From: a virus
IMG/VR virus record: IMGVR_UViG_3300006090_000001
Location: 1-23,131 of that record
DNA length: 23,131 nt
Reading direction: 5' to 3' (one strand)
The position numbers and the translations under genes were made by a program. How positions within the stretch are numbered: position 1 is the stretch's first letter; each line of letters begins with the position of its first letter. Below the pieces are notes generated by a model. That model was not told the DNA's origin and made no database searches. It was given only the letters and a program-made list of their open reading frames with translations. Of this stretch, positions 1-21,435 are shown piece after piece.

Positions 1-122
1 GGCTGACCACGGAGGGCAGGCAGGCATATCTTGGTGGGTCCTTTTTTAAGTAGAAGATATGGTGAAAGTTTTATACATTACAGTAATGTTTATTATATAT
101 CCACATACATTAGGAGCATAAT
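1..122. other. Leader region upstream of the HTH gene
   Basis: No complete gene is visible here. Two plus-strand frames are open from the left edge and could be the tail of a gene that starts outside: one stops at 47-49, the other at 51-53. I cannot choose between them. A T6 run at 42-47 follows GGGTC and could belong to a poor terminator pairing with GACC at 5-8, but the loop would be long and the stem weak. The rest is AT-rich leader containing a palindrome (75-89) and the ribosome-binding site AGGAG at 112-116, six bases before the ATG at 123. Confidence 0.4.
75..89. promoter_or_regulatory. Perfect 7-1-7 palindrome, candidate operator
   Basis: ACATTAC-A-GTAATGT is a perfect inverted repeat with a one-base centre. 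It lies in an AT-rich leader about 33 bases upstream of a gene encoding a small helix-turn-helix protein, which is the usual place for a dimeric repressor or activator site. The symmetry is directly visible; its use as an operator is inferred. Confidence 0.4.
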
Positions 123-308
123 ATGTCCGGAAATCTACTCACTATCAAACAGGTCGCAGACCAGCTATCTGTGTCAGTAATCCAAGTGCGAAGACTCATT
201 AAAGACAAAGTGTTGCCAGCATATCGTTTGGGGTATAGATCCTACCGCATAGATTCTAAAGATCTAGCTGACTTTAAAACCAAAAAGAGAACAGTCAATA
301 GTATATGA
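123..308 (+). CDS. Small helix-turn-helix protein, excisionase/MerR-like
   Basis: This 61-residue protein is nearly all one DNA-binding domain. Residues about 6-52 match the helix-turn-helix pattern of the excisionase/MerR-type family: LTIKQVADQLSVS, then a recognition helix with VRRLIKDK, then a short wing (LPAYRLGYRSYRI) and a final helix DLADFK. Such proteins act as excisionases or small regulators in phages and mobile elements. The ATG at 123 has AGGAG six bases upstream. The stop overlaps the ATG of the next gene, so the two are probably translationally coupled. A leftward integrase lies at 8134-9276, so an accessory role in excision is possible, but the genes are far apart and nothing in the sequence proves it. 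A plain regulator is equally likely. Confidence 0.75.
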   Translation: MSGNLLTIKQVADQLSVSVIQVRRLIKDKVLPAYRLGYRSYRIDSKDLADFKTKKRTVNSI

Positions 309-469
309 GAAAAATATTTAATGGTGTTCATTATCCTTATACAAAATTAAGTAAACATGGTTGTAAGGTTTGTGGTAAAAAGATTAAAGCAAGGTTGATT
401 CTCATTAAAGAAACTATTCCAAGGTATTGTTACAGGCATTTCATAAAAACCAGGGGAGGCATTGGTTGA
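305..469 (+). CDS. Small Cys-motif protein (54 aa)
   Basis: This short gene starts with an ATG that overlaps the previous stop (ATGA at 305-308) and ends at TGA 467-469. That stop overlaps the TTG start I propose for the deformylase. The product is basic, with KVCGKK (Cys20 and Cys23) and a later Cys42 followed by His45, which could make a single zinc-binding knuckle. I do not recognise a family. The tight overlaps on both sides are the main support for it being real. Confidence 0.6.
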   Translation: MRKIFNGVHYPYTKLSKHGCKVCGKKIKARLILIKETIPRYCYRHFIKTRGGIG

Positions 470-1047
470 TACAGACTAGGCAGACTAGACAAGAAGCGGC
501 TCACATAAAGATTATGAAATTTGATATCCGGGACCAGCTTGTTGTTGATAATATCACGAAGGTTAAATGGACAGAAAAAAGAAAACTACATAAAGCATTG
601 AGAACTTGGTGGGATGAGCACAACTTGTCTAGCTGTGCCTATGCTTTGGCTGCACCCCAAATCGGGATCCCCAAAACAGTGTTTTATGTGAATAATGAAT
701 CGGTTAGTATCACTAACCAGACGTTTACCAATCCCAGTATTAAATTAATAGGCGATATGTATTTATTTAAAGGAGAAGGTTGTCTGTCTTTTCCAGGCAC
801 TTATAAAAACAAATGGCGGTCCACTGAAGTGTTGATACAATGTGATGAATTTAAGGATTCTCAATTATTCACCGGAAAAGCTGCGGTGATTATGCAGCAT
901 GAGATGGATCATTTGCGGGGAATAACAATTAACCAGGCTACAACAATAGTAAATAATTTCAATAGGCCTGGGAGAAATGATGCATGTTATTGTGGGAGTG
1001 GATTAAAATATAAACGATGTTGCTTAATAAAAAAGGAGATAGTATGA
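466..1047 (+). CDS. def: Peptide deformylase with C-terminal SEC-C zinc motif
   Basis: The product should remove the formyl group from the N-terminal methionine of new proteins, a metal-dependent cytoplasmic reaction. All three deformylase motifs are present: YALAAPQIG (58-67), EGCLS (104-108) with the metal-ligand Cys106, and QHEMDH with His145, Glu146 and His149. The C-terminus carries PGRNDACYCGSG..YKRCC (168-186), the SEC-C zinc motif also found at the end of SecA. I chose TTG 466 because AGGGGAGG (452-459) sits six bases before it, it overlaps the previous stop, and the first deformylase strand (HIKIMKFD) begins before the later in-frame ATG at 514. An ATG at 427 would start inside the preceding gene. 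Phage deformylases are known from marine phages and may favour processing of rapidly turned-over proteins. The end overlaps the next gene as ATGA. Confidence 0.9.
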   Translation: MIQTRQTRQEAAHIKIMKFDIRDQLVVDNITKVKWTEKRKLHKALRTWWDEHNLSSCAYALAAPQIGIPKTVFYVNNESVSITNQTFTNPSIKLIGDMYLFKGEGCLSFPGTYKNKWRSTEVLIQCDEFKDSQLFTGKAAVIMQHEMDHLRGITINQATTIVNNFNRPGRNDACYCGSGLKYKRCCLIKKEIV

Positions 1048-2000
1048 CAACAATAATGACAAAATCAGGTAATAACGAGATAAAGAGAGGAACTAGTATC
1101 CAAGATGCGTTGGATCTTCTTGTATCCCAGGGCTATCAAATAGCACAGCCGGTCCCGGAATTGGATACGAGTCCGACTCTAATCCAGCCTACCATGGAAA
1201 TAACCCATAAGGATCTATCCAATGGGCGTTGGTATCACAATGTTGGAGATATTAATTTACTTAACTGGCGGCCTAGTGTTACAACCCAGTTAAGTGTCTT
1301 GGATAAAGGACCTGGGTTTAATCTCTGGAATAGGAATCTTGGCCACATGGCACCAAGGCATAGAGATGCAGCTGCGACAAGGGGATCTCATGTACACTAT
1401 TGGATGCATGCTCTAGTTGCGGGATCCACAGTAAATACAAATATGATCCTCAATCATATTATCCAGACCAATGATGAATCCTGGCGGTACTTTTACGATA
1501 AAGAAGAACAGTTCGCTCATTCAATCAGGCGATACCTGGCTTCATTTTGTGCATTCTGGAAAGATAAAAAACCCACACCGGTGGCAGTAGAATATCCAAT
1601 ATATTCACCTGAACTACCCTTTGCTGGTAGATTGGATATGCTGCTGAAATTCAAGAAGGCTAAAAATTCAAAGAAGGAAAGCCTTATCCTGGTAGATCTA
1701 AAAACTGGAGCACCTTACCCAACCCATGCTTATCAGAATTCGGCTTATAAACTTGGCTGGGAGACAGAACATCCGGAGTTACCCATTGATTACATTGCGG
1801 GACTGTATGTTAAGGATAGTTACCGGGGTGATCCCACCTACACATTAACGTATCAGACATACAATTATGATGCGTTTTTGTCTGCTAGTCATTTGTGGCA
1901 TGAGAAAAGCAAGACCAAATCTGGAAATGTACTTCCAACCATAAAGAAGGAACCACCGAAAGAATTCAATCTCTATCATAAACAAACAACAAAGGAGTAA
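1044..2000 (+). CDS. PD-(D/E)XK nuclease, RecB/Cas4-type
   Basis: This 318-residue protein shows the ordered motifs of the RecB/Cas4 branch of the PD-(D/E)XK nucleases: GSHVH (His116/His118), an acidic residue in VAVEYPIY (Glu183), FAGRLD (Asp198), LVDLKTG (Asp218 and Lys220, the D-x-K pair), and YQNSAY (Gln231, Tyr235). Only one cysteine is seen near the core, so the iron-sulfur cluster of typical Cas4 proteins is absent. In phages such proteins serve as exonucleases in recombination, replication or host DNA breakdown. The neighbour downstream ends in an SSB-like tail, which fits a DNA-processing pair. The start is ATG 1044, five bases after AAGGAG (1033-1038), in ATGA overlap with the deformylase stop. 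An upstream ATG at 1017 lies inside the SEC-C coding region and is less likely. Confidence 0.78.
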   Translation: MTTIMTKSGNNEIKRGTSIQDALDLLVSQGYQIAQPVPELDTSPTLIQPTMEITHKDLSNGRWYHNVGDINLLNWRPSVTTQLSVLDKGPGFNLWNRNLGHMAPRHRDAAATRGSHVHYWMHALVAGSTVNTNMILNHIIQTNDESWRYFYDKEEQFAHSIRRYLASFCAFWKDKKPTPVAVEYPIYSPELPFAGRLDMLLKFKKAKNSKKESLILVDLKTGAPYPTHAYQNSAYKLGWETEHPELPIDYIAGLYVKDSYRGDPTYTLTYQTYNYDAFLSASHLWHEKSKTKSGNVLPTIKKEPPKEFNLYHKQTTKE

Positions 2001-2006
2001 TTAACC

Positions 2007-2258
2007 ATGGCATTCGAACACAAGCTGAACACCGGTACCATATTCAAGAATGAAGAATATGACCCTAATGGAAGCGATGATGATTCAAATAACTACTGGG
2101 GAAATATGACCTGTAATGTTGCGGGAAAGATCTGGCGGGCCAGGCTATATCCAAAGGCACCCAAGGATCCGTCAAAGCCGAAGTACATGCGGGCATCATT
2201 TTACGAACCAAAACCAGCACAATCCCAGCAGCAACCGGCTGACGATCTGCCGTTTTAA
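2007..2258 (+). CDS. Small protein with SSB-like acidic tail (DDLPF)
   Basis: This 83-residue protein begins MAFEHKLNTGTIFKNE and has a short beta-rich core (GNMTCNVAGKIWRARLY). It then has a Pro/Gln-rich linker ending in ADDLPF at the extreme C-terminus. Bacterial single-stranded DNA-binding proteins end in an acidic tip of the DDDIPF type that recruits partner proteins, so this looks like a minimal SSB-like or SSB-mimic protein. It is only about half the length of a standard OB-fold SSB, so an OB fold is not certain. AAAGGAG precedes the ATG by ten bases. Its place just after a nuclease gene supports a role in replication or recombination. Confidence 0.6.
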   Translation: MAFEHKLNTGTIFKNEEYDPNGSDDDSNNYWGNMTCNVAGKIWRARLYPKAPKDPSKPKYMRASFYEPKPAQSQQQPADDLPF

Positions 2259-2270
2259 TAAGGGTATTTA

Positions 2271-2335
2271 GCCAGGGTAGGCTTTCTAGTTGTCTTGTCT
2301 CCCCATGCTCCCACATGGCATAAGTTTGCCCTGGC
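2271..2335 (+). ncRNA. Candidate structured RNA with 14-bp wobble stem
   Basis: The 14 bases at 2271-2284 can pair completely with 2322-2335 if the strand is read as RNA: 11 Watson-Crick and 3 G-U pairs, with seven uninterrupted Watson-Crick pairs at the outer end (GCCAGGG with CCCTGGC). Inside the enclosed 37 bases a second hairpin is possible, CCATG (2303-2307) with CATGG (2314-2318) around a six-base loop. The element fills the gap between the SSB-like gene and the likely ATG (2358) of the next gene. It could be a regulatory leader, an attenuator or a small RNA. No poly-U tract follows, so it is not an ordinary terminator. I do not match it to a known RNA family. Confidence 0.4.
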
Positions 2336-2357
2336 TCCCCTTTCACGTACCTCGGAT

Positions 2358-2816
2358 ATGAAACACAAACCATTCAATGCGGGTAACCATGCTGCTAATG
2401 ATGCAGCCGGTAAGGATGTTGTTCTAAATTACCTACGTGCTCATGGTGTAGCAGCAATCGAAAACCCTGATAAATATGGTGTAGATATTATGGCACCAAG
2501 GTATGAGGTAGAACGTAGGACCATACATTCCGAAAACTGGCCATATGATACAGTGCATGTGCCAGAACGCAAAACAAAGTTTTTAACAAAAGATATTTAT
2601 TATGTGGTGGTGATCCATCATATCGTATCTTCGGAATATTCCGTCAAATCTTCGGAGTGGGATACTTTAATGGTTTGTGATTCACCTACAATTCTAAAGT
2701 GTGGCTTAATTGAAGTTCCAAACAATTCTATGCCAGAAGGAGAATATTTCTATGATGTACCAATAAAATTTTGGACTATTTTACCTAATAAGGAACACAA
2801 TGCCAGCATGGAGTAA
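2358..2816 (+). CDS. Uncharacterised protein, possible PD-(D/E)XK fold
   Basis: This is a 152-residue protein if read from ATG 2358; in-frame reading could begin at TTG 2295, but that would cross the stem-loop region. Neither start has a clear ribosome-binding site. The N-terminal part (NDAAGKDVVLNYLRAHG, then NPDKYGVDIMAPRYEVERR) resembles the helix-strand-strand core of restriction-endonuclease-like proteins, with Asp43 in GVD and Glu50/Glu52 in YEVERR in the places of catalytic acids. The usual lysine of the E-x-K motif is replaced. The middle carries VHVPERKTKF, followed by a hydrophobic strand YYVVVIH. A nuclease role is a guess from pattern. The nearby nuclease and SSB-like genes make a DNA-processing job plausible. 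Confidence 0.55.
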   Translation: MKHKPFNAGNHAANDAAGKDVVLNYLRAHGVAAIENPDKYGVDIMAPRYEVERRTIHSENWPYDTVHVPERKTKFLTKDIYYVVVIHHIVSSEYSVKSSEWDTLMVCDSPTILKCGLIEVPNNSMPEGEYFYDVPIKFWTILPNKEHNASME

Positions 2817-2853
2817 TACAGTAAAGGTTAATGATATACATAGGCGAGGTTAT

Positions 2854-3072
2854 ATGTTTAAGGATGCGAAAAGAATTAACGAAGACGTTATAGATCTAAT
2901 TAAAAAGAGATTAGCTGCAGGTGCTGAAAAGTATGGAGAAGAGATACTGGTTGATGATAAGCGGGATATGATCCAGGAGACTTTAGAGGAATTACTTGAT
3001 TCATGTGTTTATCTTGCATGTAAGATAATTCAATTACAACGTAAGGAGAAAAAGGATGATACTAGAAGTTAA
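2854..3072 (+). CDS. MazG-like (all-alpha NTP pyrophosphatase) protein
   Basis: This short, wholly helical protein (72 residues from ATG 2854) has INEDVIDLIKKRLAAGAEKYG followed by ETLEELLDSCVYLACKI. The acidic residues Glu42, Glu45, Glu46 and Asp49 sit in the ExxE/ExxD-like arrangement of MazG and dUTPase-like all-alpha nucleoside triphosphate pyrophosphatases. Phages often carry such proteins to adjust nucleotide pools or the alarmone response. An ATG at 2800 in the same frame has AAGGA five bases upstream and would add 18 residues. I prefer 2854, where GAGG sits four bases upstream and the domain begins at once, but the choice is open. The end overlaps the next gene by 17 bases. Confidence 0.55.
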   Translation: MFKDAKRINEDVIDLIKKRLAAGAEKYGEEILVDDKRDMIQETLEELLDSCVYLACKIIQLQRKEKKDDTRS

Positions 3073-3238
3073 AAAGTTCCCAGAGAGCAAAGCTGTGGCC
3101 TGGGATTCAGAATGGTTTCCAATCGCAGCAGCCGATGCAGAAAAGGATCCCATAGGTAGCCATGCTATGGCAAGGATCCTGCACTCTAGAAGGGTGGGAA
3201 CATCTGTGAAGAAAAAGAAGGATGCAAAGGATGTGTAA
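3056..3238 (+). CDS. Small uncharacterised protein (60 aa)
   Basis: A 60-residue protein with a strongly basic C-terminus (SRRVGTSVKKKKDAK). I do not recognise a family. The ATG at 3056 follows a purine-rich stretch with AAGGAG about ten bases upstream, and the gene overlaps its neighbours on both sides, as is usual in this operon. Confidence 0.6.
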   Translation: MILEVKKFPESKAVAWDSEWFPIAAADAEKDPIGSHAMARILHSRRVGTSVKKKKDAKDV

Positions 3239-4532
3239 GAGTGACTCTATCAGACATAACGAATTATATAGAGTAATTTATGTTTGGTTTAAGTTGTGTG
3301 AAGAGTTTTGTATAATATCCAGTTTAGCTTATGGGTCATTGCTTGGATGTATTAGACATGATGGGATCATTCCCTGGGATGAAGATGCGGATGTTTGCAT
3401 TTTTCCGCAGGATTATGTAACTGTTAATTCGCCAGGATTTATTAGAGCATTAAATAGATGGGGTTATAATTTGGTAAAATCTGGTAAGCCAAAAAATATA
3501 CCTGATCAATTTTGTTTACGCATTTATAGAGAAAAGAATATATCGGACCTCATTCCTAAACCTAGATCATCCCCAGGGGTAAACCAATTAAAGGCTTTGG
3601 GTGAAGGATATTTGGATGTTTTTATTTTTCGTGGATTTAGAGATGGTGATGATGAGTTATATTACCGTCCAGTGGGTTTTAAAAAATATTGTGAAGAAAA
3701 AGATAAAATTTCTTATAATGAAATTTATCCATTGAAAACTAGAAACTTTGGTGGTTATACTGTTAACATATTTAATAAAAGCGAAGATTATTTAAAAAGA
3801 TTATATGGTCAATATTGTTTAAAGGAAGCCATGGAGCATAGCTACAATAATTTAGGAAAAATACACCTGAAAAAGGTGTCCTCTGCTTTTTTAAATACTC
3901 ATGTACCTTCTGTTATTGATGTGAATTATTGGTGTGGACTTTATAGGCAAAGTTTATTTGCGGATTATGTTGTCGAATATATTCAGTCTATGGGTAATGC
4001 ACTGCCACAAAAACTAGATCTCTTGGATCTAGGATGTGGCGATAATAGAGATGATTATTATTTTATCAGGCAGGGATTAAATGTTACTGCTGTGGATAGT
4101 GCGGTAAGTGAATGTTCAGGTGATCTGTTAAAAAAGGGTGCTTCTCTTGATGTTATTAAATCAGATATTATATATTTCATCAATAAGAGCATAGGCCGCT
4201 ATCATATTATCTATTGTAGGTTTGTTTTACATGGGTTAACGGAACTGGATGAAACCTTATTGATGCAGAAATTATATCGCTATAGCAGCCCAGGTACTTA
4301 TTTGTTTTTTGAGTTTCGTACACCAAAAGATGAATTGTATGGGAAGGGTATTCAATTATCAGAAAATGAATTTATATATAATAATCATTATAGACGTTTT
4401 ATTGATCTTGATAAACTTGCTGCAAAAGTTACGGATATTGGATTTAATATTAATTATCAAGAGCAATCTAATCAATTTGCAAGATATGGTAATTTTAAAC
4501 CAACTGTAGCTAGGATGGTCTTAATTGGTTAA
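3231..4532 (+). CDS. LicD-family transferase fused to SAM methyltransferase
   Basis: This 433-residue protein joins two enzymes. Residues about 1-210 form a LicD/fukutin-type domain of the nucleotidyltransferase fold. YGSLLG (34-39) and a stretch ending WDEDADV supply the metal-binding Asp52/Asp54, and FGGYTV (173-178) plus YLKRLYG (187-193) match the family's closing motif. LicD enzymes transfer phosphocholine or similar phospho-groups onto cell-surface sugars. Residues about 230-433 form a class I methyltransferase: LDLLDLGCGD (GCGD at 268-271), the acidic VTAVD (Asp289), and YCRFVLHGL after strand 4. The gene is very AT-rich: by hand count 30, 25 and 22% G+C in the 60-base lines starting at 3421, 3661 and 3721, against 53% at 1141 and 40% at 5101. 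This points to recent acquisition. ATG 3231 lies nine bases after GAAGG; ATG 3222 is an alternative. Surface modification (lysogenic conversion, exclusion) is inferred. Confidence 0.82.
   Translation: MCKSDSIRHNELYRVIYVWFKLCEEFCIISSLAYGSLLGCIRHDGIIPWDEDADVCIFPQDYVTVNSPGFIRALNRWGYNLVKSGKPKNIPDQFCLRIYREKNISDLIPKPRSSPGVNQLKALGEGYLDVFIFRGFRDGDDELYYRPVGFKKYCEEKDKISYNEIYPLKTRNFGGYTVNIFNKSEDYLKRLYGQYCLKEAMEHSYNNLGKIHLKKVSSAFLNTHVPSVIDVNYWCGLYRQSLFADYVVEYIQSMGNALPQKLDLLDLGCGDNRDDYYFIRQGLNVTAVDSAVSECSGDLLKKGASLDVIKSDIIYFINKSIGRYHIIYCRFVLHGLTELDETLLMQKLYRYSSPGTYLFFEFRTPKDELYGKGIQLSENEFIYNNHYRRFIDLDKLAAKVTDIGFNINYQEQSNQFARYGNFKPTVARMVLIG
4119..4137 (+). repeat. 19-bp direct repeat, copy 1 (copy 2 at 6249-6267)
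   Basis: Nineteen bases, GGTGATCTG followed by TTAAAAAAGG, occur identically here inside the methyltransferase domain and at 6249-6267 near the end of the helicase-loader-like gene. Both encode GDLLKK in frame. The copies are 2130 bases apart in the same orientation. Chance protein similarity is possible; exact identity at the DNA level is the notable part. Confidence 0.5.
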
Positions 4533-4794
4533 TATTTTTTTCCATGATGATGAAGAAGTTTCAGACTGTTGTGGTGCATCATATGCTACACCAGGTTGGC
4601 CAGACAATGATCTATGTAGTGAGTGTAAAGAACATTCAGAACCGATACAATACCATTATGAAGAATTCTACGATATGAACCCAATTGATATTACAAGAAA
4701 ACAGGACAAAGTTGGTAGGTGCGAACTTTGTAATAGGAATCCATGCACCTGTATAACAAACATAACTGGGAGAATAAACAATGCCAAAATTTAA
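4525..4794 (+). CDS. Zinc-ribbon-like protein (89 aa)
   Basis: The product has two cysteine clusters: VSDCCGAS with LCSECKEH (Cys15, 16, 31, 34), a pattern common in small phage zinc proteins, and RCELCNRNPCTC (Cys66, 69, 74, 76). Metal binding is likely; the partner or target is unknown. The only start in frame is TTG at 4525, which overlaps the end of the LicD fusion gene; AGGA lies about eight to nine bases upstream. The last bases overlap the ATG of the next gene. Confidence 0.6.
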   Translation: MVNIFFHDDEEVSDCCGASYATPGWPDNDLCSECKEHSEPIQYHYEEFYDMNPIDITRKQDKVGRCELCNRNPCTCITNITGRINNAKI

Positions 4795-5005
4795 AAAACA
4801 CTTCACCGGGGTTATACGGTCAACCGCTGAATCCACCCAAATAGAGTGCCCTGAATGCGATTCAAAGAATGTCATTTTTGAGGAATACATACGACCCCGA
4901 ACACCTGATGAGAGTGATCTTGGGATTAAATGTGAAGACTGTGGTTACAAGGAAGATCCCGAAGATTATGGTAACCGGTTCGAACCAACCGAACCAGAAG
5001 AGTGA
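4781..5005 (+). CDS. Small zinc-ribbon protein (74 aa)
   Basis: A compact zinc ribbon is formed by CPEC (Cys23, Cys26) and CEDCG (Cys51, Cys54), with an acidic C-terminal tail rich in Glu and Pro. No specific role can be assigned. It may bind nucleic acid or act as a small adaptor. The ATG at 4781 follows GGGAG by about nine bases. It sits just before the replication genes. Confidence 0.65.
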   Translation: MPKFKKHFTGVIRSTAESTQIECPECDSKNVIFEEYIRPRTPDESDLGIKCEDCGYKEDPEDYGNRFEPTEPEE

Positions 5006-5008
5006 TCA

Positions 5009-5782
5009 ATGAAGAGAGAGCATGGATGGATTAAGATCCATAGGGATCTGAAGGACCACTGGATATTTGCTAATGCAGAGTATCTAAAAGCCTGGATCCA
5101 GCTGCTTATGATGGCTAATCATAAGACCAAAAAATGGCTGGTCCAGGATCAAATGGTATTGATCAAACGGGGGGAATTAATCACTAGCCTGGCAGAGTTG
5201 GCCAAGCAATGGGGCTGGTCCCGGGGTAAGGTTAGGCGGTACATCAACATGCTGGAAAACGACACAATGGTGGTACGCAAATCGACACACTTATGGACAC
5301 ACCTAACTATCTGCAACTACGGGACTTACCAGGATCTGCGGCCAACCGACAGTACAACTGACGGACAGCAAACAGTACAACCAACGGACAGCAAACAGTA
5401 CAACCAACGGACACAACTAAAGAATGTAAAGAAAGACAAGAATGTAAAGAATGTAAAGAATGTTAAGAATGGTGTGGTTGAAGCTGCCGCTCCAACATTG
5501 CTGTCCATCTTTGGGGAGTTTTATCTAGAGTATACTGGCGTAGAGTATCATGCATCGTTTGGGAAGGATGGGAAGATCCTCCAAGAATTGGAGAAACAGT
5601 ATGGCTTTGATCCAGTAGCTGCTGGTATAGGGTTCTTCTTCCAGGAATATATTAAGAAAGATACATTTGCAAAAAAGAATCCTAATGTTGGTATGTTAAG
5701 AAATACCTGGAATGGAATGATTGCAATGGCCAGTGAAAGGAATAGAAATAAAAAGCAATACGATGACTGGGCCAATGAATAA
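5009..5782 (+). CDS. Phage replication initiator (O/DnaD-like)
   Basis: The 257-residue protein begins HGWIKIHRDLKDHWIF..YLKAWIQLL, the usual opening of phage replisome organisers. It continues with a winged helix at about 56-90 (ELITSLAELAKQWGWSRGKVRRYINML). A low-complexity linker (113-155; repeated TDSKQ/QPTDS and KNVK units) leads to a C-terminal domain (about 160-257) that resembles DnaD-like or O-protein helicase-recruiting regions. It would bind the phage origin and bring in a helicase through the loader encoded next. The linker is built from DNA repeats that look like iterons (5348-5473), so the origin may lie inside the gene as in lambda O. Four bases separate it from the previous gene, and the next gene overlaps its end. 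Confidence 0.78.
   Translation: MKREHGWIKIHRDLKDHWIFANAEYLKAWIQLLMMANHKTKKWLVQDQMVLIKRGELITSLAELAKQWGWSRGKVRRYINMLENDTMVVRKSTHLWTHLTICNYGTYQDLRPTDSTTDGQQTVQPTDSKQYNQRTQLKNVKKDKNVKNVKNVKNGVVEAAAPTLLSIFGEFYLEYTGVEYHASFGKDGKILQELEKQYGFDPVAAGIGFFFQEYIKKDTFAKKNPNVGMLRNTWNGMIAMASERNRNKKQYDDWANE
5348..5417 (+). repeat. Iteron-like direct repeats inside the replication gene
   Basis: A 23-base unit occurs twice in perfect tandem (5363-5385 and 5386-5408). It is followed by nine related bases (5409-5417) and preceded by a diverged copy of the second half of the unit (5348-5362, three mismatches in 15). Each unit contains ACAGTACAACC. The location within an initiator gene resembles lambda-type origins, where the initiator binds repeats inside its own coding sequence. 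The 23-base period is not a multiple of three, so successive copies are read in different frames; this suggests the DNA sequence, not the peptide, is what is conserved. Confidence 0.6.
5420..5473 (+). repeat. 9-bp AT-rich repeats next to the iterons
   Basis: The unit AAGAATGTA occurs at 5420-5428, 5438-5446 and 5447-5455, with close variants at 5456-5464 and 5465-5473. The stretch is almost free of C and very A-rich on the plus strand. It lies directly after the 23-base repeats, where a DNA-unwinding element would be expected. It encodes the KNVKNVKNVKN linker. Confidence 0.55.
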
Positions 5783-6275
5783 ACAGGACTTTACAAAGGT
5801 TATGCATTACTTAAACACTGCCTACAATAAAGAATTTAGTGATGGTACAATGAGAGTGTACTATGACCAGCTGGGGATCTATGAGTTATCTACTGTTACC
5901 AACGCTGTTAGGGAATGGGTGAGCAAGAGTGAATTCTTTCCTAAAGTAGCTGATATTACTAAACTGATAAAAGATAAGGTTGTTACTTTTGATCAGGTGA
6001 TGAAGGATCTTAAAAAAGTGATCCAGGTAACCACTGGGGAGTCATGGAATAAATCGCAGATCCATTCTGTTAGCTACCAGATCCTAAATGAACTGGGGGG
6101 TAAAACTAGTGTGGGTAATTTATCGGATGTGATATTAGAAAAGAAAGTAAGATTTAAATATAAGTACGTTGTTAATGAACAGTTACTGGGGATAGGATCT
6201 AAAACTAAAAAGGTAGTAGGCATGAGATCCGGTCAAACAAAGTTACTTGGTGATCTGTTAAAAAAGGATGTGTGA
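5775..6275 (+). CDS. Helicase-loader-like protein (SPP1 G39P-type)
   Basis: Read from ATG 5775, the protein has 166 residues and begins MNKQDFTKVMHYLNTAYNKEF..TMRVYYDQLGIYEL, then VTNAVREWV and FFPKVADITKLI. This helical pattern is typical of phage helicase loaders of the G39P type, which deliver a replicative helicase to the initiator-bound origin. Position right after the O-like gene supports this. Starts at 5763 or 5721 are possible in the same frame, but no start has a strong ribosome-binding site; coupling to the preceding gene, which ends at 5782, is likely. No helicase gene is in the window, so the host helicase or one encoded outside would be loaded. The stop overlaps the GTG of the next gene. 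Confidence 0.6.
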   Translation: MNKQDFTKVMHYLNTAYNKEFSDGTMRVYYDQLGIYELSTVTNAVREWVSKSEFFPKVADITKLIKDKVVTFDQVMKDLKKVIQVTTGESWNKSQIHSVSYQILNELGGKTSVGNLSDVILEKKVRFKYKYVVNEQLLGIGSKTKKVVGMRSGQTKLLGDLLKKDV

Positions 6276-6685
6276 TTATGTGGCCAGGTGCTGGGGAAAG
6301 AATAAAACGGACCCGAACAGATATATTGTTTTCGGAATATGTTCGTCACCGGGATGATTGGACCTGTCAAAGATGCGGGAAGAAGTTTACCCAGGGTGTA
6401 GATTCCAGGGGCCTACACTGTGCTCATGTGTGGTTTGGAAGAGCCAACAAGTCCACCAGATGGGAACCGATAAATTGTGTATCTCTCTGTATTGGATGTC
6501 ACAATCAGGTGGACCAGTCTCCAGCCGAGGCATGGGAACTTCTTATAAGCAAAATAACACCCCAGGAAATTCTGTGGCTGCAACAACAGAAGGATGAGAA
6601 ACGCACTATCAAAATCTCCAAGGAGGTAGAGATGGAAGCTAGAGAGAGAGTGAAACAATTGTTACTTGATATCAAGAAAGAATAG
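6272..6685 (+). CDS. HNH-type zinc nuclease-like protein
   Basis: This 137-residue protein has CQRCGK (Cys32, Cys35), then LHCAHVW (His49, His52), then a 16-residue gap to INCVSLCIGCHNQVD (Asn68, Cys73, Cys76, His77). This is the layout of HNH/treble-clef nucleases with a structural zinc held by two CxxC pairs. Similar proteins next to phage replication genes include NinG/Rap-type recombination factors and HNH endonucleases; I cannot separate these by eye. The C-terminal third is charged and helical. GTG 6272 overlaps the previous stop and has AAAAAGG upstream; ATG 6278 is an alternative. Confidence 0.68.
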   Translation: MIMWPGAGERIKRTRTDILFSEYVRHRDDWTCQRCGKKFTQGVDSRGLHCAHVWFGRANKSTRWEPINCVSLCIGCHNQVDQSPAEAWELLISKITPQEILWLQQQKDEKRTIKISKEVEMEARERVKQLLLDIKKE

Positions 6686-6696
6686 ACTTATTGACT

Positions 6697-6861
6697 ATGA
6701 AAAATAGTAGAAATACAACCATACCAGGTGTAAGGGTTAAGTACACGGAGAAGAAAGATACAAGAAAACTTATTCTTGAGCGGCTGGATTCGGCTGAAGC
6801 CACGCTGGATCAGATAACCAAGAAGATTGATAAACTTAATGAAAAAATCAACACGAAATGA
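6697..6861 (+). CDS. Small coiled-coil protein (54 aa)
   Basis: ATG 6697 to TGA 6859-6861 encodes a basic N-terminus followed by a likely coiled coil (LILERLDSAEATLDQITKKIDKLNEKI, residues about 25-51, with hydrophobic residues at heptad spacing). No strong ribosome-binding site is visible, and the function is unknown. It fills the gap after the HNH-type gene and overlaps the next small gene, which supports it being expressed. Confidence 0.5.
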   Translation: MKNSRNTTIPGVRVKYTEKKDTRKLILERLDSAEATLDQITKKIDKLNEKINTK

Positions 6862-7027
6862 TTACTTAATACGATCTGTATACCGGGATCTAATCAGAGA
6901 GCGGCATGCCCAGAAAAAAGATACTGGCAAATTACGGGATCGTTTGAATCAACTGGAAGAAGACAAATGGGGAAATACAGTAGAAGGTGTTCCGACAGTG
7001 CGAAGAGTGCCTATAAAACCTTCATAG
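6839..7027 (+). CDS. Small basic protein (62 aa)
   Basis: Read from ATG 6839, this is a charged helical protein (NDYLIRSVYRDLIRERHAQKK, then LRDRLNQLEEDKWG) with a Pro-rich end. TTG 6827 is an earlier possible start. I do not recognise it. It overlaps the genes on both sides in other frames. Confidence 0.5.
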   Translation: MKKSTRNDYLIRSVYRDLIRERHAQKKDTGKLRDRLNQLEEDKWGNTVEGVPTVRRVPIKPS

Positions 7028-7146
7028 ATATCGCTATAAGCCTTGCATACGGCTTATCTCTAGTGTTACTACTAGTAGGTACGGCTATAGCTGTTCCGCT
7101 GCTTATGCTGGGATCTTATATGTTTGACAAGTTCCATGGCAGATGA
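6967..7146 (+). CDS. Small membrane protein (59 aa)
   Basis: ATG 6967 to TGA 7144-7146 encodes a short basic N-terminus (GKYSRRCSDSAKSAYK) followed by a long hydrophobic stretch, residues about 19-50, containing ISLAYGLSLVLLLVG and AIAVPLLMLG. This is enough for one long or two short membrane segments. GGAAG lies seven bases before the start. It overlaps the preceding gene by 61 bases and the next by 11. Short basic-plus-hydrophobic proteins like this can be holins, exclusion proteins or toxins, but no endolysin is near, so no role is assigned. Confidence 0.55.
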   Translation: MGKYSRRCSDSAKSAYKTFIDIAISLAYGLSLVLLLVGTAIAVPLLMLGSYMFDKFHGR

Positions 7147-7348
7147 TTATGATCTGATTAAAATTATTGCTAGATCCCAATGTGATTATCCGGATGGGAT
7201 AGGCGAAAAGCGTAGCCTATTAAATATACGGTCTGTTGTGGGACGTAAGTATTTGTGGAAGTGCAGCAGATCTGAATTAAATAAGATTATTAAAATGTCC
7301 AGGGATGAATATATATACTTAAAAAACAAAAAGGCCACAATTAAGTGA
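7136..7348 (+). CDS. Uncharacterised protein (70 aa)
   Basis: Read from ATG 7136, the protein contains SRSELNKIIKMSRDEYIYLK near its end and a central IGEKRSLLNIRSVVG segment. It has no recognised family. A TTG at 7124 is another possible start. It is the last rightward gene before the convergent integrase operon, and its final codons lie inside the terminator of that operon. Confidence 0.55.
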   Translation: MADDYDLIKIIARSQCDYPDGIGEKRSLLNIRSVVGRKYLWKCSRSELNKIIKMSRDEYIYLKNKKATIK

Positions 7349-7951: not shown

Positions 7952-8134
7952 TTACTTGGCTAGGTAATTAATGAAAATCTTAAATGTATGTATTGCCCAT
8001 TGATAATATACCCAGGCGAAATAAGACATTGCCAACGACTTGCCTACTTCTAGCCACCGGACATCTTCTATAATATCAAAGGCCTGGATTCCTTCGTCCA
8101 GGCCTTCAACTTCACTTCGTTTTTTGATTGCCAT
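7952..8134 (-). CDS. Small uncharacterised protein (60 aa)
   Basis: The second half is aromatic and hydrophobic (LAMSYFAWVYYQWAIHTFKIFINYL), which could be membrane-associated or an amphipathic helix. The first half is charged. Its ATG overlaps the stop of the integrase gene (TAATG), so translation is probably coupled. No family is recognised. Confidence 0.6.
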   Translation of the reverse strand: MAIKKRSEVEGLDEGIQAFDIIEDVRWLEVGKSLAMSYFAWVYYQWAIHTFKIFINYLAK

Positions 8135-9276
8135 TACTTCAGCCGCTTAATGGCTTCGTATGCTTTAACCTGATCCACATGCTTGACATAGATCTTTTTG
8201 AGCATTGTGGTATCACTGTGACCCATGATCAGTGCAACTTCATCTAGACTTAATCCTGATTCTAGAAGGTTGGTAGCACAGGTATGTCTGACTGCTGCAA
8301 TTACACTGTCGATCCCCTGGCCAGCAAGTGCTATCTTGAATCTCTTGTTGGATTTATCTCTGGCACTCTTGTTAGGATATATCCCAAAACAATCATCACC
8401 ATAAGTTGAGATAGCCTTCTCAATATTGGGATGAACCGGGATCCTGGCCAGTCTGCCGTTCTTGGCTCTTTTACCGTTGATGTGTCTGCCGTTACCCTTG
8501 TTGTCAGCTTCGATGCTGGCGGGAGTTAAAGCACTTACATCTTTAGGGTTCAAAGCGGTGTACCGCAACCAGGTCCAGAAGATTTTATCTGAATCGTTAG
8601 CATCGTTGATTACTATATCAAATGCATCGTCAGGAATGTAATCCCATTCTACAACAGTTGCCGTACCAGGCTTCTGTGCATACTTAACAGGATTCTTCGT
8701 GACCAGGTCATTCGCAACTGCATAATTGAATAGCTGCGATACCGGCTTGAGGTAGTTGTTAATCGTGTTTGCTGCCTTGCCTAATCCTTCCCGGCTAACG
8801 ATGAAATCATCAACATTCTCTGTTGTAACTGAACTTATGAGAGTATCACCACCAACGAATTCAATAAAGAATTTATGGCATACGATTTCTCTTTTGATCC
8901 AGTCAGCTGATTTCCGGCTGCTAACCTTGGAAAGCCATTTGTCCCGGCAATCACTATATGTTATTGTTGATGTGAGAGTATCACCATTTGTTTGATAACT
9001 GTCTGGTAGGTGATCGACCAGAACGAGTGCTAGTTTGGTCTTGTCAGATGGATCCAGTGTAGAAATGGAATCCACTAAACTAGCAAAATCAATACCACTG
9101 ACTCGTTTGTCAACTTCATTACGCTCCCATTTGATAGCCTGTTCTAAAGCTAATTGCCTGGCTTTCCTAGGACCATAAACTGAAATCCGAATCTTGGTAC
9201 TGACAGCGTTTTGAGATCCATCTGCTGTGCTGAAATTAGCCCAGTAAATGTCTCCCCTTTTATAAACACTAGCCAT
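8134..9276 (-). CDS. int: Tyrosine recombinase (phage integrase), atypical active site
   Basis: The 380-residue protein has the domain order of phage integrases: a short N-terminal arm-binding part (VYKRGDIYWANF), a core-binding SAM-like domain at about 105-200 (including NTINNYLKPVSQLFNYAV), and a catalytic domain at 210-380. It would integrate and excise the phage genome. The later catalytic residues are in place: Lys272 in RAKNGR, Arg330 in AAVRHTCATNLL, His353 in MGHSDT and Tyr363 in KIYVKH. Two positions are unusual. The first catalytic arginine, normally in a TGLRxxE-type box, reads TALNPKDV with Asn243. The first residue of the HxxR box is Ala327. AAGGAG lies eight bases before the ATG. 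It heads a leftward operon of five genes. Confidence 0.85.
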   Translation of the reverse strand: MASVYKRGDIYWANFSTADGSQNAVSTKIRISVYGPRKARQLALEQAIKWERNEVDKRVSGIDFASLVDSISTLDPSDKTKLALVLVDHLPDSYQTNGDTLTSTITYSDCRDKWLSKVSSRKSADWIKREIVCHKFFIEFVGGDTLISSVTTENVDDFIVSREGLGKAANTINNYLKPVSQLFNYAVANDLVTKNPVKYAQKPGTATVVEWDYIPDDAFDIVINDANDSDKIFWTWLRYTALNPKDVSALTPASIEADNKGNGRHINGKRAKNGRLARIPVHPNIEKAISTYGDDCFGIYPNKSARDKSNKRFKIALAGQGIDSVIAAVRHTCATNLLESGLSLDEVALIMGHSDTTMLKKIYVKHVDQVKAYEAIKRLK

Positions 9277-10152: not shown

Positions 10153-10404
10153 ATGAAATATATAATAGTAATTATATTAGTTGCTTTAATGGGGTGTTCT
10201 CATATGGAGGTATTGAATGATTCAGAATTAAAGAAAATAATAACCATACAGGATCCAGAGGGAGTATATCATAGATATAATCCAGCAGAATTTTATCCAA
10301 TTCCCTGGGGTTATGGTGCCGTACTAATAGAGGCCTACTGTTATTCACACAAGGAATTTGAAGTATCAATAATACATAAAAGCGGAAGGATAGAAAGCAA
10401 ATGA
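10153..10404 (+). CDS. Small lipoprotein (83 aa)
   Basis: The protein opens with a lipoprotein signal peptide: MKYIIVIILVALMGC has a hydrophobic core and a lipobox LMGC, so Cys15 would be lipid-modified and the mature protein would be outside the cytoplasm. The rest (HRYNPAEFYPIPWGYGAVLIEAYCYSHKEFEVSIIHKSG) is a short beta-rich domain with no recognised family. Phage lipoproteins act as outer-membrane spanins or as superinfection-exclusion factors. This one is not proline-rich like Rz1, so exclusion or virion entry roles remain open. The last codon overlaps the next ATG. Confidence 0.7.
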   Translation: MKYIIVIILVALMGCSHMEVLNDSELKKIITIQDPEGVYHRYNPAEFYPIPWGYGAVLIEAYCYSHKEFEVSIIHKSGRIESK

Positions 10405-10655: not shown

Positions 10656-10892
10656 ATGGAACTCAACAAAATTTTTGCATTGATTGAACAATATGGTTTA
10701 CCGTTAATTTTATTACTCGGAGCCATTTATGCACTATACAGATTTTTGGTGTTTAGTTTGTATGAGGTAAAGAATGAATTTGGTAAAAGACACGAAGACA
10801 ATGCTAGGGCAATGGCTGAATTGAAGGAGTCTATGGCAGAAATTAAATCAGACATTAAACTACTAGTAGAGTTTTTTAAGAGTAAACGGTAA
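10656..10892 (+). CDS. Holin-like membrane protein with coiled-coil tail
   Basis: A single likely membrane segment (YGLPLILLLGAIYALYRFLVF, residues about 13-33) is followed by a charged helix with heptad spacing (EVKNEFGKRHEDNARAMAELKESMAEIKSDIKLLVEF). This matches the layout of small BhlA/UviB-type holins and of other phage membrane proteins. A holin would form lesions that let an endolysin reach the wall, but no endolysin is present in the window, so the assignment is tentative. The ATG follows the previous stop directly (TAAATG), and the stop overlaps the start of the terminase gene. Confidence 0.62.
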   Translation: MELNKIFALIEQYGLPLILLLGAIYALYRFLVFSLYEVKNEFGKRHEDNARAMAELKESMAEIKSDIKLLVEFFKSKR

Positions 10893-12265
10893 TGGAAGAG
10901 CGAGTCATATGGCAGCCCCATCCGGGTCCCCAGACTAAAGTATTAACCCGTAAGGAATCAGAGATTTTATTTGGTGGATCCAGGGGTGGAGGAAAGACTG
11001 AAGCAATGACAGTCTGGATGGTAGAGCCGGATTATATAAAGAGTCCTAGATACAGGGGTTTAGTAATCAGGCGTAATTACGATGATCTGAAGGACTGGAT
11101 AGATCGTGCCAAGCATATGTACCGTTATATGGGAGTAAAGGTAACCGGAAATCCAGCCCAGTTTGAATTTCCATCTGGAGCCAAGATCTGGACCGGTCAC
11201 TTGAGTAATGAAGATGCCTGGACAAAGTATCTTGGCCAGGAGTACCAGAAAATTGCAATTGAAGAGTTAACTCTAATCCCTAATGAGTTAGATTATTTAA
11301 GATTAATCTCATCAGCAAGAAGTACAATTCCAGGGATCTCGTCCCAGGTATTTGCGACAACAAACCCCGGGGGTCCTGGCCATGGTTGGGTGAAGGCCAG
11401 GTTTGTAGATAGTGCCAAGAACAAAACACACTTTGACAAGAAAAGCAGAAAATCACGGATTTTTATACCCAGTAAGGTAACAGATAACCCTACTATTATG
11501 CGTGAAGATCCGGAGTATATTGAGAGTTTGAAGGCATTACCGGATGAATTAAGGCGTGCCTGGTTAGATGGAGATTGGGATGTATTCTCTGGACAGTTCT
11601 TTCAAAAGTGGCGGCATGACATTCATGTAGTAGAGCCTTTCGACATACCATATGAGTGGTACCGGTATAGATCTATTGACTATGGTTTTGCAGCACCATT
11701 TGCCTGTGGTTGGTGGGCTGTAGACTTTTTCGGGAATGTTTACTTATATCGTGAGCATTACGAAGCTGGCCAAGAGTTAAGTCACCACATAGATAGGATA
11801 TTAGAATTAAGTGGTCAAGAAGAATATATGATGTCAGTAGGAGATCCTAGTATGTGGATCCGTAATCCACAGAACACAAATAGGAGCGATGTAGTAGCAC
11901 CAAGTAATATGAGCATTGCTGATATTTTAAATCGTGCTGGAGTCAATCTATTTAAAGCTAATAATGAAAGAGTTAATGGTTGGAACCTATGCCGTCAGTA
12001 CCTAGATCACTATGCAGAGCAGCCGCCAAAGTTAAAAGTATTTTCAACATGTCCAAATTTTATAAGAACAATCCCAACCCTAGTCCACGATGAGAAAAGG
12101 CCGGAGGATCTAAACACAAAGGGTGAGGACCACCATGCTGATCAAATGAGGTATTTTTTACATTATGTAGGATCTCCAACCAAGGTAGTACAGAAGCCAT
12201 GGTTGCAGAAAGAATTAGATAAATTATTATCAGAAGACACAGATTATCAAGGGATCAGAGCATGA
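10892..12265 (+). CDS. terL: Terminase large subunit (TerL)
   Basis: TerL is the packaging motor: its ATPase pumps DNA into the prohead and its nuclease cuts the concatemer. The 457-residue length is normal. ATPase motifs: Walker A GGSRGGGKT (28-36), Walker B IAIEEL (121-126, Glu124/Glu125), and the coupling motif TTNPGG (156-161). Nuclease motifs of the RNase H-like fold: SIDYG with Asp263, GDPSMW with Asp318 and HHADQMRYF with Asp417. The start overlaps the previous stop (TAATG) and the end overlaps the next ATG. The gene leads directly to the portal gene after one small gene, the standard order. Confidence 0.95.
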   Translation: MEERVIWQPHPGPQTKVLTRKESEILFGGSRGGGKTEAMTVWMVEPDYIKSPRYRGLVIRRNYDDLKDWIDRAKHMYRYMGVKVTGNPAQFEFPSGAKIWTGHLSNEDAWTKYLGQEYQKIAIEELTLIPNELDYLRLISSARSTIPGISSQVFATTNPGGPGHGWVKARFVDSAKNKTHFDKKSRKSRIFIPSKVTDNPTIMREDPEYIESLKALPDELRRAWLDGDWDVFSGQFFQKWRHDIHVVEPFDIPYEWYRYRSIDYGFAAPFACGWWAVDFFGNVYLYREHYEAGQELSHHIDRILELSGQEEYMMSVGDPSMWIRNPQNTNRSDVVAPSNMSIADILNRAGVNLFKANNERVNGWNLCRQYLDHYAEQPPKLKVFSTCPNFIRTIPTLVHDEKRPEDLNTKGEDHHADQMRYFLHYVGSPTKVVQKPWLQKELDKLLSEDTDYQGIRA

Positions 12266-12474
12266 TCATCAGACCTTTAAATCTGCAATGGTTTAATCCA
12301 GAGACTGGAGAATGGGAAGAGAAAGATATCCCAGAAGTAAATGAAGTGATCATGGAAATAGATCGTATAGAATCAATAGGTGCTATATCATATGATTATA
12401 GACAGGCACTTATTACTATCGTTAATCAGGTAACACAACAAAGTTTAACTGGAATTGAGATAGAGGCAAACTAA
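12262..12474 (+). CDS. Small protein between TerL and portal (70 aa)
   Basis: An acidic, mostly helical protein (WFNPETGEWEEKDIPEVNEVIMEIDRI) whose start and stop overlap the flanking genes (ATGA and TAATG). Small proteins in this slot are common in phages but this one matches no family I can name. Confidence 0.65.
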   Translation: MIIRPLNLQWFNPETGEWEEKDIPEVNEVIMEIDRIESIGAISYDYRQALITIVNQVTQQSLTGIEIEAN

Positions 12475-14288
12475 TGGCAAAGAAAAAAACTGAAGCGGCT
12501 TATAAACCAACCCGTAAACACGAAAAAATAATCAAGAAAAATGAAGCTATGTTTGATATGTGTTTTCGAGCCAGGGAAAATACAACCACTGTTTGGCGGG
12601 AAGCTGAACGGTTATATATGGGTGATCACTGGACCAACATGAATATGCCAGCATTTAAGAACCAGGTTACGCTAGATCTTATTGCTAGTGCTATAGATAC
12701 AATGATCCCAATTCTTTCTAACCGTCCACCCCGAATTGATATAATTGCTGTAGGTGGAGATGACATATCTACAAAAGCAGCAGAGATATTACAAAAGCAA
12801 ATGGATGAGTTATGGGTAATTAGGGATATGCAAAATTTAATCCCGGATTGGTTATTAGATTATCTGGTATATGGCAATGGAATCTTAAAGGTCCATTTCC
12901 AGGACGATGATTTGCCAGATGCTGATGTTGTAGATCCTTATGCTTTCTTTGTGAATCCATCGGCAACGAAGTTGGAGAATGCAGAGTATGTTATTTATGC
13001 AGCACCAACCCCATTATGGGAGATCCGGGAAAAGTACGAGAATGGTAAATATGTAAAGTCAGAATCAAAACTTGATAAGTACGAAGCATTAAAGATTAAT
13101 GATGCTCAAGTTGGTGGGGATGATGTGGTCCAGGTCACTGATACCACCGGTTCAGAAACAAACTATTATGAAAACTCTTCCAGGGCCATGGAGGATCTAG
13201 AAGAGAGAGCACTATTAATTGAGGTCTATGCCAGGGATTACACAAAGGAATATATTGAGGCTGATGATCCTTCAGACGAATCACGGGAGATAGATAAATA
13301 TCCTGGCATGATTCGGCAGACAGCTATTGCCAATGGTGTTTTATTATATGATGGTCCAACCAGATATCCGTTCTTAACTAAAGAAAACCATTTGGCTCAT
13401 CCATTCCCATTCATTGTATTAAAGAATGGTGGATCTGCTCATAGTTTTTGGGGTAAGCCGGAACCAAAGAGATTAAAGTCTCTAAACCTATCTTTAGATC
13501 GTTTAGCCAGTCAAATGATGGACAATACCCACTTAATGGCCAATCCAATGTGGGTAGCTGATGAGACTACAGATGTAGTAGATCAAATAAACAATAAACC
13601 TGGTAGCGTAATCCGGAAACGTGGCCCTGGTGCAGTGAACATGCTGCAACCAGCTGGAATGCCAAATTATGTATTTAATTTTTATTCATTGCTAGGTGAG
13701 ATGTTTGAAACTATTAGTGGGGTTAACAAGGCAACCCAGGGTAAAGCTGATGCTAATGTAACAAGTGGTGTTCAGGCACAGATCTATCGCCAGGCTTCCA
13801 CTACCAAGATTGATTTCAAGGCAAGGTCTGTGGACCAGGCAATTCAAACTCTTGGCAGTATGTGGGTAGCTATGATTGTAAATCTTGGAACAGAAGAACA
13901 TCTAACAAGTGTTGAAACAGATCAGGGAATGCAGGACCGGAAATATATAGGTGCTATGCTCCAAGGGATGAACTTTGAAGTTAGAGCCAGATCCGGTTCT
14001 ATGTTGCCGGAGAATAGAGAGTGGATTGAACAGAAGATCATGCAGCTTATGCAACTAGGTCTTGTTACGGATCCGCTATATATCCTGGAGAACATAGAAC
14101 TACCAGGAAAAGAAAGACTTATAAGATCCTTAATGGAAGCACAGAAAGCACAATCTGGTAATGCAGAACCCATGGCTCCCGAAGAAATGGCAAATCTGGG
14201 AACCAATGAGGATGATATTATGAAAAAGTTTGAGCAAGATCCTACACTAATAGATAGACTCCCTGAAAATATGAGATCAAGAACATAA
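12474..14288 (+). CDS. Portal protein
   Basis: The portal forms the ring at one head vertex through which DNA enters and leaves and onto which the tail assembles. The 604-residue protein sits between TerL and the scaffold and capsid genes. It has the expected architecture: a helical N-terminus with tryptophan-rich WREAERLYMGDHW, LIASAIDTMIPILSNRPP, a wing, a stem-like stretch QMMDNTHLMANPMWV, and a long helical region ISGVNKATQGKADANVTSGVQAQ typical of podovirus/P22-type portals. The C-terminus (about 545-604) is acidic and Met-rich. No frameshift is seen. Confidence 0.88.
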   Translation: MAKKKTEAAYKPTRKHEKIIKKNEAMFDMCFRARENTTTVWREAERLYMGDHWTNMNMPAFKNQVTLDLIASAIDTMIPILSNRPPRIDIIAVGGDDISTKAAEILQKQMDELWVIRDMQNLIPDWLLDYLVYGNGILKVHFQDDDLPDADVVDPYAFFVNPSATKLENAEYVIYAAPTPLWEIREKYENGKYVKSESKLDKYEALKINDAQVGGDDVVQVTDTTGSETNYYENSSRAMEDLEERALLIEVYARDYTKEYIEADDPSDESREIDKYPGMIRQTAIANGVLLYDGPTRYPFLTKENHLAHPFPFIVLKNGGSAHSFWGKPEPKRLKSLNLSLDRLASQMMDNTHLMANPMWVADETTDVVDQINNKPGSVIRKRGPGAVNMLQPAGMPNYVFNFYSLLGEMFETISGVNKATQGKADANVTSGVQAQIYRQASTTKIDFKARSVDQAIQTLGSMWVAMIVNLGTEEHLTSVETDQGMQDRKYIGAMLQGMNFEVRARSGSMLPENREWIEQKIMQLMQLGLVTDPLYILENIELPGKERLIRSLMEAQKAQSGNAEPMAPEEMANLGTNEDDIMKKFEQDPTLIDRLPENMRSRT

Positions 14289-20760: not shown

Positions 20761-21429
20761 ATGATACATGCACCTAATATAAATACATTGTGGACAAATA
20801 AAAGATTAAAAGTCCATGGTGATGTTGATATAAAAGTATACGACCCAGAAGATCTGATACGTATGGAACCAAAGGTCGATATTTTAGATACAAATATTGT
20901 AAAAGACGATTTGTTAGAAAAGCTGAATGACGAAATGCATACAACTTCGTCTGCAAATACAGCACACCAGTTACACACAGGTACTAACTGGCATCCAGCA
21001 AGTGATATGTGCTTATCCCCAGACCTGTGTCAGAACTACACTAATACATCAAATCGAGAGGGTGAGAATGGCATTAGTGTTGCGGTCACTGGTTACACTG
21101 GCCGGATTCAAGATGATGTTTACGGTGGTTGCAGCCAATGCCATGGCTTTTGTTTGTATGACAACACAAGTACCTCCACCACCAATAATGCAAGTACCTG
21201 GGCTGCTGAAGCAACTTGGCTGTCCGGATACGATCCTAACACCACTACGGTAGAAAGAATGTATATGGGTAAAGATTTTGATTCCCAAATTGGTGGCAAC
21301 TTCACCAATGTGTTTTCTACATCCTTTGATGGTCCGTATAATTTCAAGTATGCATATTATGATAACACCAACTTCACTATTCAGACTTTAGATATTCTTC
21401 GGGTAACTTGGACAATTACAGTAGGGTAA
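20761..21429 (+). CDS. Beta-rich virion protein, Thr/Asn-rich (222 aa)
   Basis: After a short helical start (EDLIRMEPKVDILDTNIVKDDLLEKLNDE), the protein is rich in Asn, Thr and Ser, with several cysteines (CLSPDLC, GGCSQCHGFC) and a closing beta strand similar to that of its upstream neighbour. This composition is common in tail-spike or receptor-binding accessories. AGGAG lies seven bases before the ATG. Function unknown. Confidence 0.55.
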   Translation: MIHAPNINTLWTNKRLKVHGDVDIKVYDPEDLIRMEPKVDILDTNIVKDDLLEKLNDEMHTTSSANTAHQLHTGTNWHPASDMCLSPDLCQNYTNTSNREGENGISVAVTGYTGRIQDDVYGGCSQCHGFCLYDNTSTSTTNNASTWAAEATWLSGYDPNTTTVERMYMGKDFDSQIGGNFTNVFSTSFDGPYNFKYAYYDNTNFTIQTLDILRVTWTITVG

Positions 21430-21435
21430 TTTTAA

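Follow-up and report, generated by a model that had tools for sequence, protein, structure and literature searches.

A phage cargo gene fusing a LicD-type transferase to a SAM methyltransferase, with a predicted role in host surface glycan modification

A tailed, integrase-bearing phage carries, within its replication module, a single gene in which a LicD-type transferase domain and a class I SAM methyltransferase domain are joined in one reading frame. The catalytic motifs of both domains are intact, two closely related phages lack precisely this gene, and the same methyltransferase family is repeatedly linked to LicD in other viruses and in bacteria. The gene lies at positions 3222-4532 on the plus strand of the window, which is the whole stretch of DNA analysed (23,131 nucleotides, positions 1 to 23,131 of the IMG/VR viral contig IMGVR_UViG_3300006090_000001). 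We consider it fairly probable that this presence/absence cargo gene encodes a two-step decorator, which would transfer a phospho-group to a surface glycan of the host and methylate it.

The reading frame at 3231-4532 has 433 open codons and yields a protein of 433 aa from the ATG at 3231, or of 436 aa from a second in-frame ATG nine bases upstream, at 3222; motif residues are numbered from ATG 3231, as in the preliminary description of this DNA. A second, independently assembled contig of 42 kb, IMGVR_UViG_3300025082_000016, matches the window at 99.9% end to end, and the reading frame and its protein are 100% identical there (L003). The fusion gene has a G+C content of 32.1% (GC3 23.1%), compared with about 40% for the window. 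The preliminary description held that its G+C was much lower than that of its neighbours; the contrast with the window is real, but it is smaller than was claimed, as several nearby small ORFs (2800-3072, 4525-4794, 10153-10404 and 10656-10892) are equally poor in G+C, at 32-35%.

Two intact domains in one frame had been proposed from the sequence, and both are recovered by Pfam above the curated cut-offs. The LicD/FKTN/FKRP-type nucleotidyltransferase-fold domain occupies 3231-3890 (aa 1 to about 205, followed by a linker), with a LicD (PF04991) match of E=1e-15 and 58.9 bits against a cut-off of 22.6, which falls into two stretches. The motif WDEDAD at 3375-3392 supplies the predicted metal-binding residues D50, D52 and D54. 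Across 28 aligned LicD domains the W-D-x-D-x-D pattern is invariant (W49, D50, D52 and D54 are unchanged), and so is the wider motif made up of G, G, R, P, W, D, D and D. The residue positions given earlier are correct for both domains: D52 and D54 lie within W49-D50-E-D52-A-D54, and GCGD is found at 268-271.

Structure prediction and domain search, proposed earlier as a check, place the first half with LicD/FKRP and the second with class I methyltransferases. The LicD half was modelled separately because neither full-length input was suitable: a 14-row alignment gave a poor model of this half, and in a 47-row alignment the LicD-only rows were misaligned with the methyltransferase half. The AlphaFold model of the LicD half alone reaches a pLDDT of 80 and a pTM of 0.78. 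Its 13 best PDB matches are all FKRP chains (E 3.6e-8 to 1e-6), including a CDP-ribitol complex, and the next is an antibiotic nucleotidyltransferase (E 1e-4); a comparison with predicted structures of viral proteins ranks LicD proteins first. FKRP is a phosphotransferase that uses CDP-ribitol, and transfer of a phospho-alcohol from a CDP donor is the most likely predicted activity. An assignment as a cholinephosphotransferase through NCBIfam GGPL_Ptran_Mf1 was rejected at 53.5 bits, far under the cut-off of 225. The domain thus resembles the LicD family (Lic-1; FKTN/FKRP) in its Pfam match, in the invariant G..LG..R..PWDxDxD motif and in its FKRP fold, and differs in being short (about 210 aa) and joined to a methyltransferase. 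In the Lic-1 system LicD moves phosphocholine from CDP-choline (PMC10434233); of its partners licA, licB and licC, none is recognised in the larger ORFs of the sister contig of 42 kb from the phage with the fusion.

The class I SAM methyltransferase domain, at 3900-4529, is identified by Pfam (Methyltransf_23, E=4.7e-8, 33.4 bits, cut-off 27), by alignment (motifs N-YW..Y, D-GCG..RD, Y.RF.LH, E.R...D and HYRRF) and by its model, in which pLDDT is mostly 85-97 in the domain core and fold matches are to class I methyltransferases. The SAM-binding motif I, GCGD (4032-4043), is aligned across the family. By alignment this half belongs to a rare subfamily that conserves YW..Y, D.GCG..RD, Y.RF, E.R...D and HYRRF; among the genomes sampled, a strict threshold left it in 4 of 391 from Clostridia and 3 of 296 from Spirochaetota, with the genome on which each search was centred included in the count. 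A genome scan with a single methyltransferase sequence gave no matches, and an alignment of the family was needed as the query. The fold search does not discriminate a substrate, as its matches are class I methyltransferases for many substrates (METTL6, N-terminal methyltransferases).

The surroundings of the gene are those of a phage, with a recognisable terminase, portal, major head protein, DnaD-like loader, exonuclease and tyrosine integrase. The integrase (8134-9276, minus strand, from a domain search) suggests a temperate lifestyle. Upstream of the fusion lie a PD-(D/E)XK exonuclease of the replication/recombination module (1017-2000, plus strand, domain search) and a small ORF (3056-3238, plus strand), which overlaps the start of the fusion gene and is conserved in sister phages except for its last codons. 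Downstream follow a small Cys-rich ORF (4525-4794, plus strand), homologous to its counterparts from about SDCCGA onward and unlike them at its 5' end, and the DnaD-like helicase loader of the replication module (5009-5782, plus strand). Since the fusion gene overlaps the upstream ORF, transcription together with the replication module is no less likely than transcription under a promoter and terminator of its own. Capsid and terminase relatives are scattered over many hosts, and for this reason no host is assigned to the phage.

Over the flanks, two sister contigs (3300025072_000038, 3300025114_000041) share about 94% identity with the window, and both are without the fusion gene. Their alignments (L096, L097, L110 and L111) end at window position 3222 and restart at 4567, so that about 105 bp replaces 1.34 kb; the missing segment, 3222-4566 on the plus strand, takes in the fusion gene together with the 5' end of the small gene that follows it. 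The fusion gene is a precise single-gene presence/absence cargo in the replication module, and its earlier description as phage cargo is borne out by this empty site. Its low G+C suggests that the fusion-bearing lineage gained it rather than that the sisters lost it. Next to it, two small ORFs rich in Cys and zinc-ribbon-like (4525-4794 and 4781-5005) diverge faster between the sisters than their neighbours do, and the site may be a cargo hot spot.

A gene that comes and goes in this way could be a passenger with no selected function in the phage, as its low G+C, its long tree branch (1.96) and its absence from the sister phages would allow. We consider this very unlikely: the ORF is intact and full-length in two independent assemblies, keeps all its catalytic motifs and is tightly packed with its neighbours.

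A search for the same fusion or pair elsewhere, also suggested in the preliminary description, found the pairing in viruses and both fusions and pairs in bacteria. Starting from the methyltransferase, LicD is touching or fused in 10 of 11 viral contigs besides the sister copy (L163-L169 and L171-L173; L170 is the only one without LicD), or in about seven of eight once near-duplicates are merged. Starting from LicD, the methyltransferase is fused or adjacent in 4 of 38 non-self viral contigs: L140, L154, and L146 and L147, which carry the fusion in reverse order (methyltransferase-LicD). The two scans overlap, L140 being the contig of L166, and L146 and L147 those of L171 and L172. Other phages run LicD and the methyltransferase as two overlapping genes, usually in that order, and most of them keep the pair within larger sugar clusters, several beside virion genes; the lone LicD-methyltransferase fusion was found in only one phage species. 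Judged from the translations only, genes near the pair resemble NeuB/NeuA in L154, L168 and L173, and one resembles a pyruvyltransferase in L140 and L164. At L164 4963-5724 a phage sugar cluster combines LicD, the methyltransferase and, preceded by a membrane-like segment, an APS-kinase-like domain, next to a sulfotransferase-like gene; phage glycan sulfation is possible there.

The cyanophage S-CAM7 (NC_031927) also has the same methyltransferase family adjoining a LicD-family gene, and differs in that the two are separate genes, the methyltransferase directly followed by LicD, in a multi-gene sugar cluster beside a tail fibre gene, with epimerases, an aminotransferase and glycosyltransferases annotated around them. 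The pair is annotated there as 'adenylylsulfate kinase' and 'hypothetical protein'. The first label, given in GenBank to the gene at 8004-8573 of L004, is attached to a protein that aligns full-length to the methyltransferase family, and it has probably leaked from CysC-methyltransferase fusions such as those of L015-L018. The S-CAM7 methyltransferase also matches MT837166 (L013), which we set aside as a generic methyltransferase in a bacterial-looking fragment and no notable member of the family.

In bacteria, LicD lies within 300 bp of the methyltransferase or in the same ORF at 8 of 24 loci of the subfamily and at none of 56 loci of other methyltransferases from the same scan (Fisher p=2.5e-5), these controls being generic methyltransferases, not picked from glycan clusters. 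The LicD matches come from an iterated profile; most of the divergent ones keep G.LLG..R....D.D.D, and several independently pass Pfam LicD. Fusions and pairs occur in Mediterraneibacter, Nocardioides, Opitutus and Alphaproteobacteria. Mapping the fusion label onto the tree takes four changes or more, on branches with good support, which means that the fusion has been gained or lost repeatedly; the window itself sits on so long a branch that its position is uncertain. The fusion of Mediterraneibacter agrestimuris (L021) has the same domain order and families at about 31% identity, with a longer LicD part (about 290 aa) and a chromosomal cluster that holds a TagF-like gene along with two further licD genes. 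The methyltransferase subfamily also has other partners: four Clostridia (L015-L018) have it joined to an APS-kinase-like (P-loop) domain, and in L019, L020 and L120 it comes after a TagF-like glycerophosphotransferase. From the sequences, the theme that these partners appear to share is an enzyme that would put a phosphate-bearing group on a glycan, and the recurrence of LicD beside the subfamily supports the two as a functionally linked pair. A further setting is a spirochaetal ORF of 708-723 aa (L117; L121, 161-2329, minus strand) that ends in the methyltransferase and has some 500 residues that match nothing in Pfam.

Remodelling of a host surface glycan by the LicD-methyltransferase pair is, we infer, a reasonable reading of this linkage. 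The LicD domain would take a phosphate-linked group of the phospho-alcohol type from a donor that is probably CDP-linked and produced by the host, and would place it on a hydroxyl group of a surface glycan of the host or of that glycan's lipid-linked precursor. The fused methyltransferase would methylate this decoration or the sugar to which it is attached. Fusion would thereby couple two successive steps that are run by two adjacent genes in other phages and in bacteria. The likeliest benefit would be a changed phage receptor, giving superinfection exclusion or protection of the lysogen.

The enzyme could instead decorate the phage particle, on a tail or head glycan. In S-CAM7, L154, L168 and L173 the pair stands among sugar genes directly beside virion genes, and the sugar-cluster setting of most other phages fits a virion-linked glycan as well as a host glycan. 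The fusion itself, however, is in the replication module, far from the virion genes, and the larger ORFs of the 42-kb phage contig include no further recognisable glycan-synthesis gene; for these two reasons the host glycan is the more likely target here, and decoration of the particle seems improbable. Most viruses that have the methyltransferase have both enzymes side by side, so the pair is probably a general phage kit for altering a surface glycan.

Two other proposals concern the methylation. According to the preliminary description, the methyltransferase could make phosphocholine by N-methylation of (phospho)ethanolamine, for LicD to attach to the glycan. The use of CDP-choline by the LicD of Lic-1 (PMC10434233) is in its favour, and plant phosphoethanolamine methyltransferases do rank first in a PDB profile search by summed score. 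These chains carry two methyltransferase domains, however, and the summed score adds both; scored singly, the best domain reaches about 45.5 bits, over the SAM core only, against 58.7 bits for an unrelated Methanosarcina methyltransferase of unknown function, and the identification is lost. In the fold search a phosphoethanolamine methyltransferase comes only 42nd, and in an ungapped stretch the family has R-F-x-L-H where the plant enzymes have R-D-T-I-L-H. PvPMT uses a catalytic Tyr/His dyad, Y16/H129, and a Tyr/Arg phosphate site, Y24/Y157/Y178/R176 (PMC4357015); the profile alignment sets the His of our family one residue off the register of that dyad, and L016 has Tyr there. Choline kinase, transporter and cytidylyltransferase are not recognised in the larger ORFs of the 42-kb phage, and the family pairs with TagF-like and APS-kinase-like enzymes too. 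The methyltransferase is not specifically related to phosphoethanolamine methyltransferases, and we regard the phosphocholine route as quite unlikely. A methyl-phosphate cap that stops chain growth and alters the surface, as made by WbdD or the Klebsiella O7 kinase-methyltransferase, would draw on the known kinase-methyltransferase pairs, which have evolved with unrelated kinases (PMC3482155, PMC11231755), and on the fusion of our family to an APS-kinase-like P-loop domain in the four Clostridia. We hold it to be unlikely: LicD-type enzymes give phosphodiesters from CDP donors, not free phosphomonoesters, and a methylphosphate would need a different donor; the APS-kinase-like domains may serve sulfation; and WbdD is absent from the 60 best PDB matches of the methyltransferase.

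The two-step decoration of a host glycan that we favour has partial parallels in described systems. WbdD and Klebsiella O7 ORF6 likewise combine a phospho-group enzyme and a SAM methyltransferase in one chain that acts on a surface glycan (predicted here), and differ in using a kinase instead of a LicD-type transferase, in their chromosomal O-antigen loci and in showing no close match to our methyltransferase; Pfam finds no kinase domain in the fusion protein, whose phosphate enzyme is LicD, and it is therefore not of the WbdD type. In some Flandersviridae phages licD and ispD are inserted in the replication module, and a role in superinfection has been proposed (PMC8008677). LicD is presence/absence cargo of a replication module there as well, with a separate IspD-type cytidylyltransferase gene as its partner, whereas the window phage has a fused methyltransferase. 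In Campylobacter, MeOPN is a methylated phospho-decoration tied to phage interaction (PMC3907429).

Both LicD and methyltransferases are already known in phages. In the literature searched (open-licence full text only) we found no description of the LicD-methyltransferase pair, of its recurrence, of fusions in both orders or of its carriage as single-gene cargo. We suggest, tentatively and at somewhat less than even odds, that LicD and this subfamily form a widespread undescribed cassette, found above all in phages, for a methylated phospho-decoration, reduced in this phage to a single cargo gene that would convert the host surface on its own. Glycan modifiers borne by phages help decide which phages infect a cell, and a part in blocking superinfection had already been put forward as a possibility for phage LicD genes (PMC8008677); the almost constant pairing with a single methyltransferase subfamily in viruses suggests a methylated phage decoration. 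With both steps on a single polypeptide the fusion is a concrete, testable enzyme, and it offers a lead to the function of phage and bacterial genes now called hypothetical or 'adenylylsulfate kinase'.

Several other features were noted. A peptide deformylase with a C-terminal SEC-C motif (427-1047) lies directly upstream of the exonuclease and is conserved in the sister phages; S-CAM7 likewise has a deformylase. Inside the DnaD-like gene, three 23-bp direct repeats followed by 9-bp repeats (5339-5471) resemble the iteron origins found inside phage replication genes and are a possible replication origin. On the minus strand, L008 encodes a very large polyvalent protein that exceeds 2,400 aa and has both an ADP-ribosyltransferase domain (ART-PolyVal) and DUF7178 (3-7310), and L010 another of this kind with LPD38 (11331-13964); both are candidates for virion-carried proteins. 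A tail-region protein of about 804 aa (window 20911-23131; L008 11061-13475, minus strand) contains degenerate internal repeats (WKHL..F/DEEF), which show as repeated matches of 65-106 bp.
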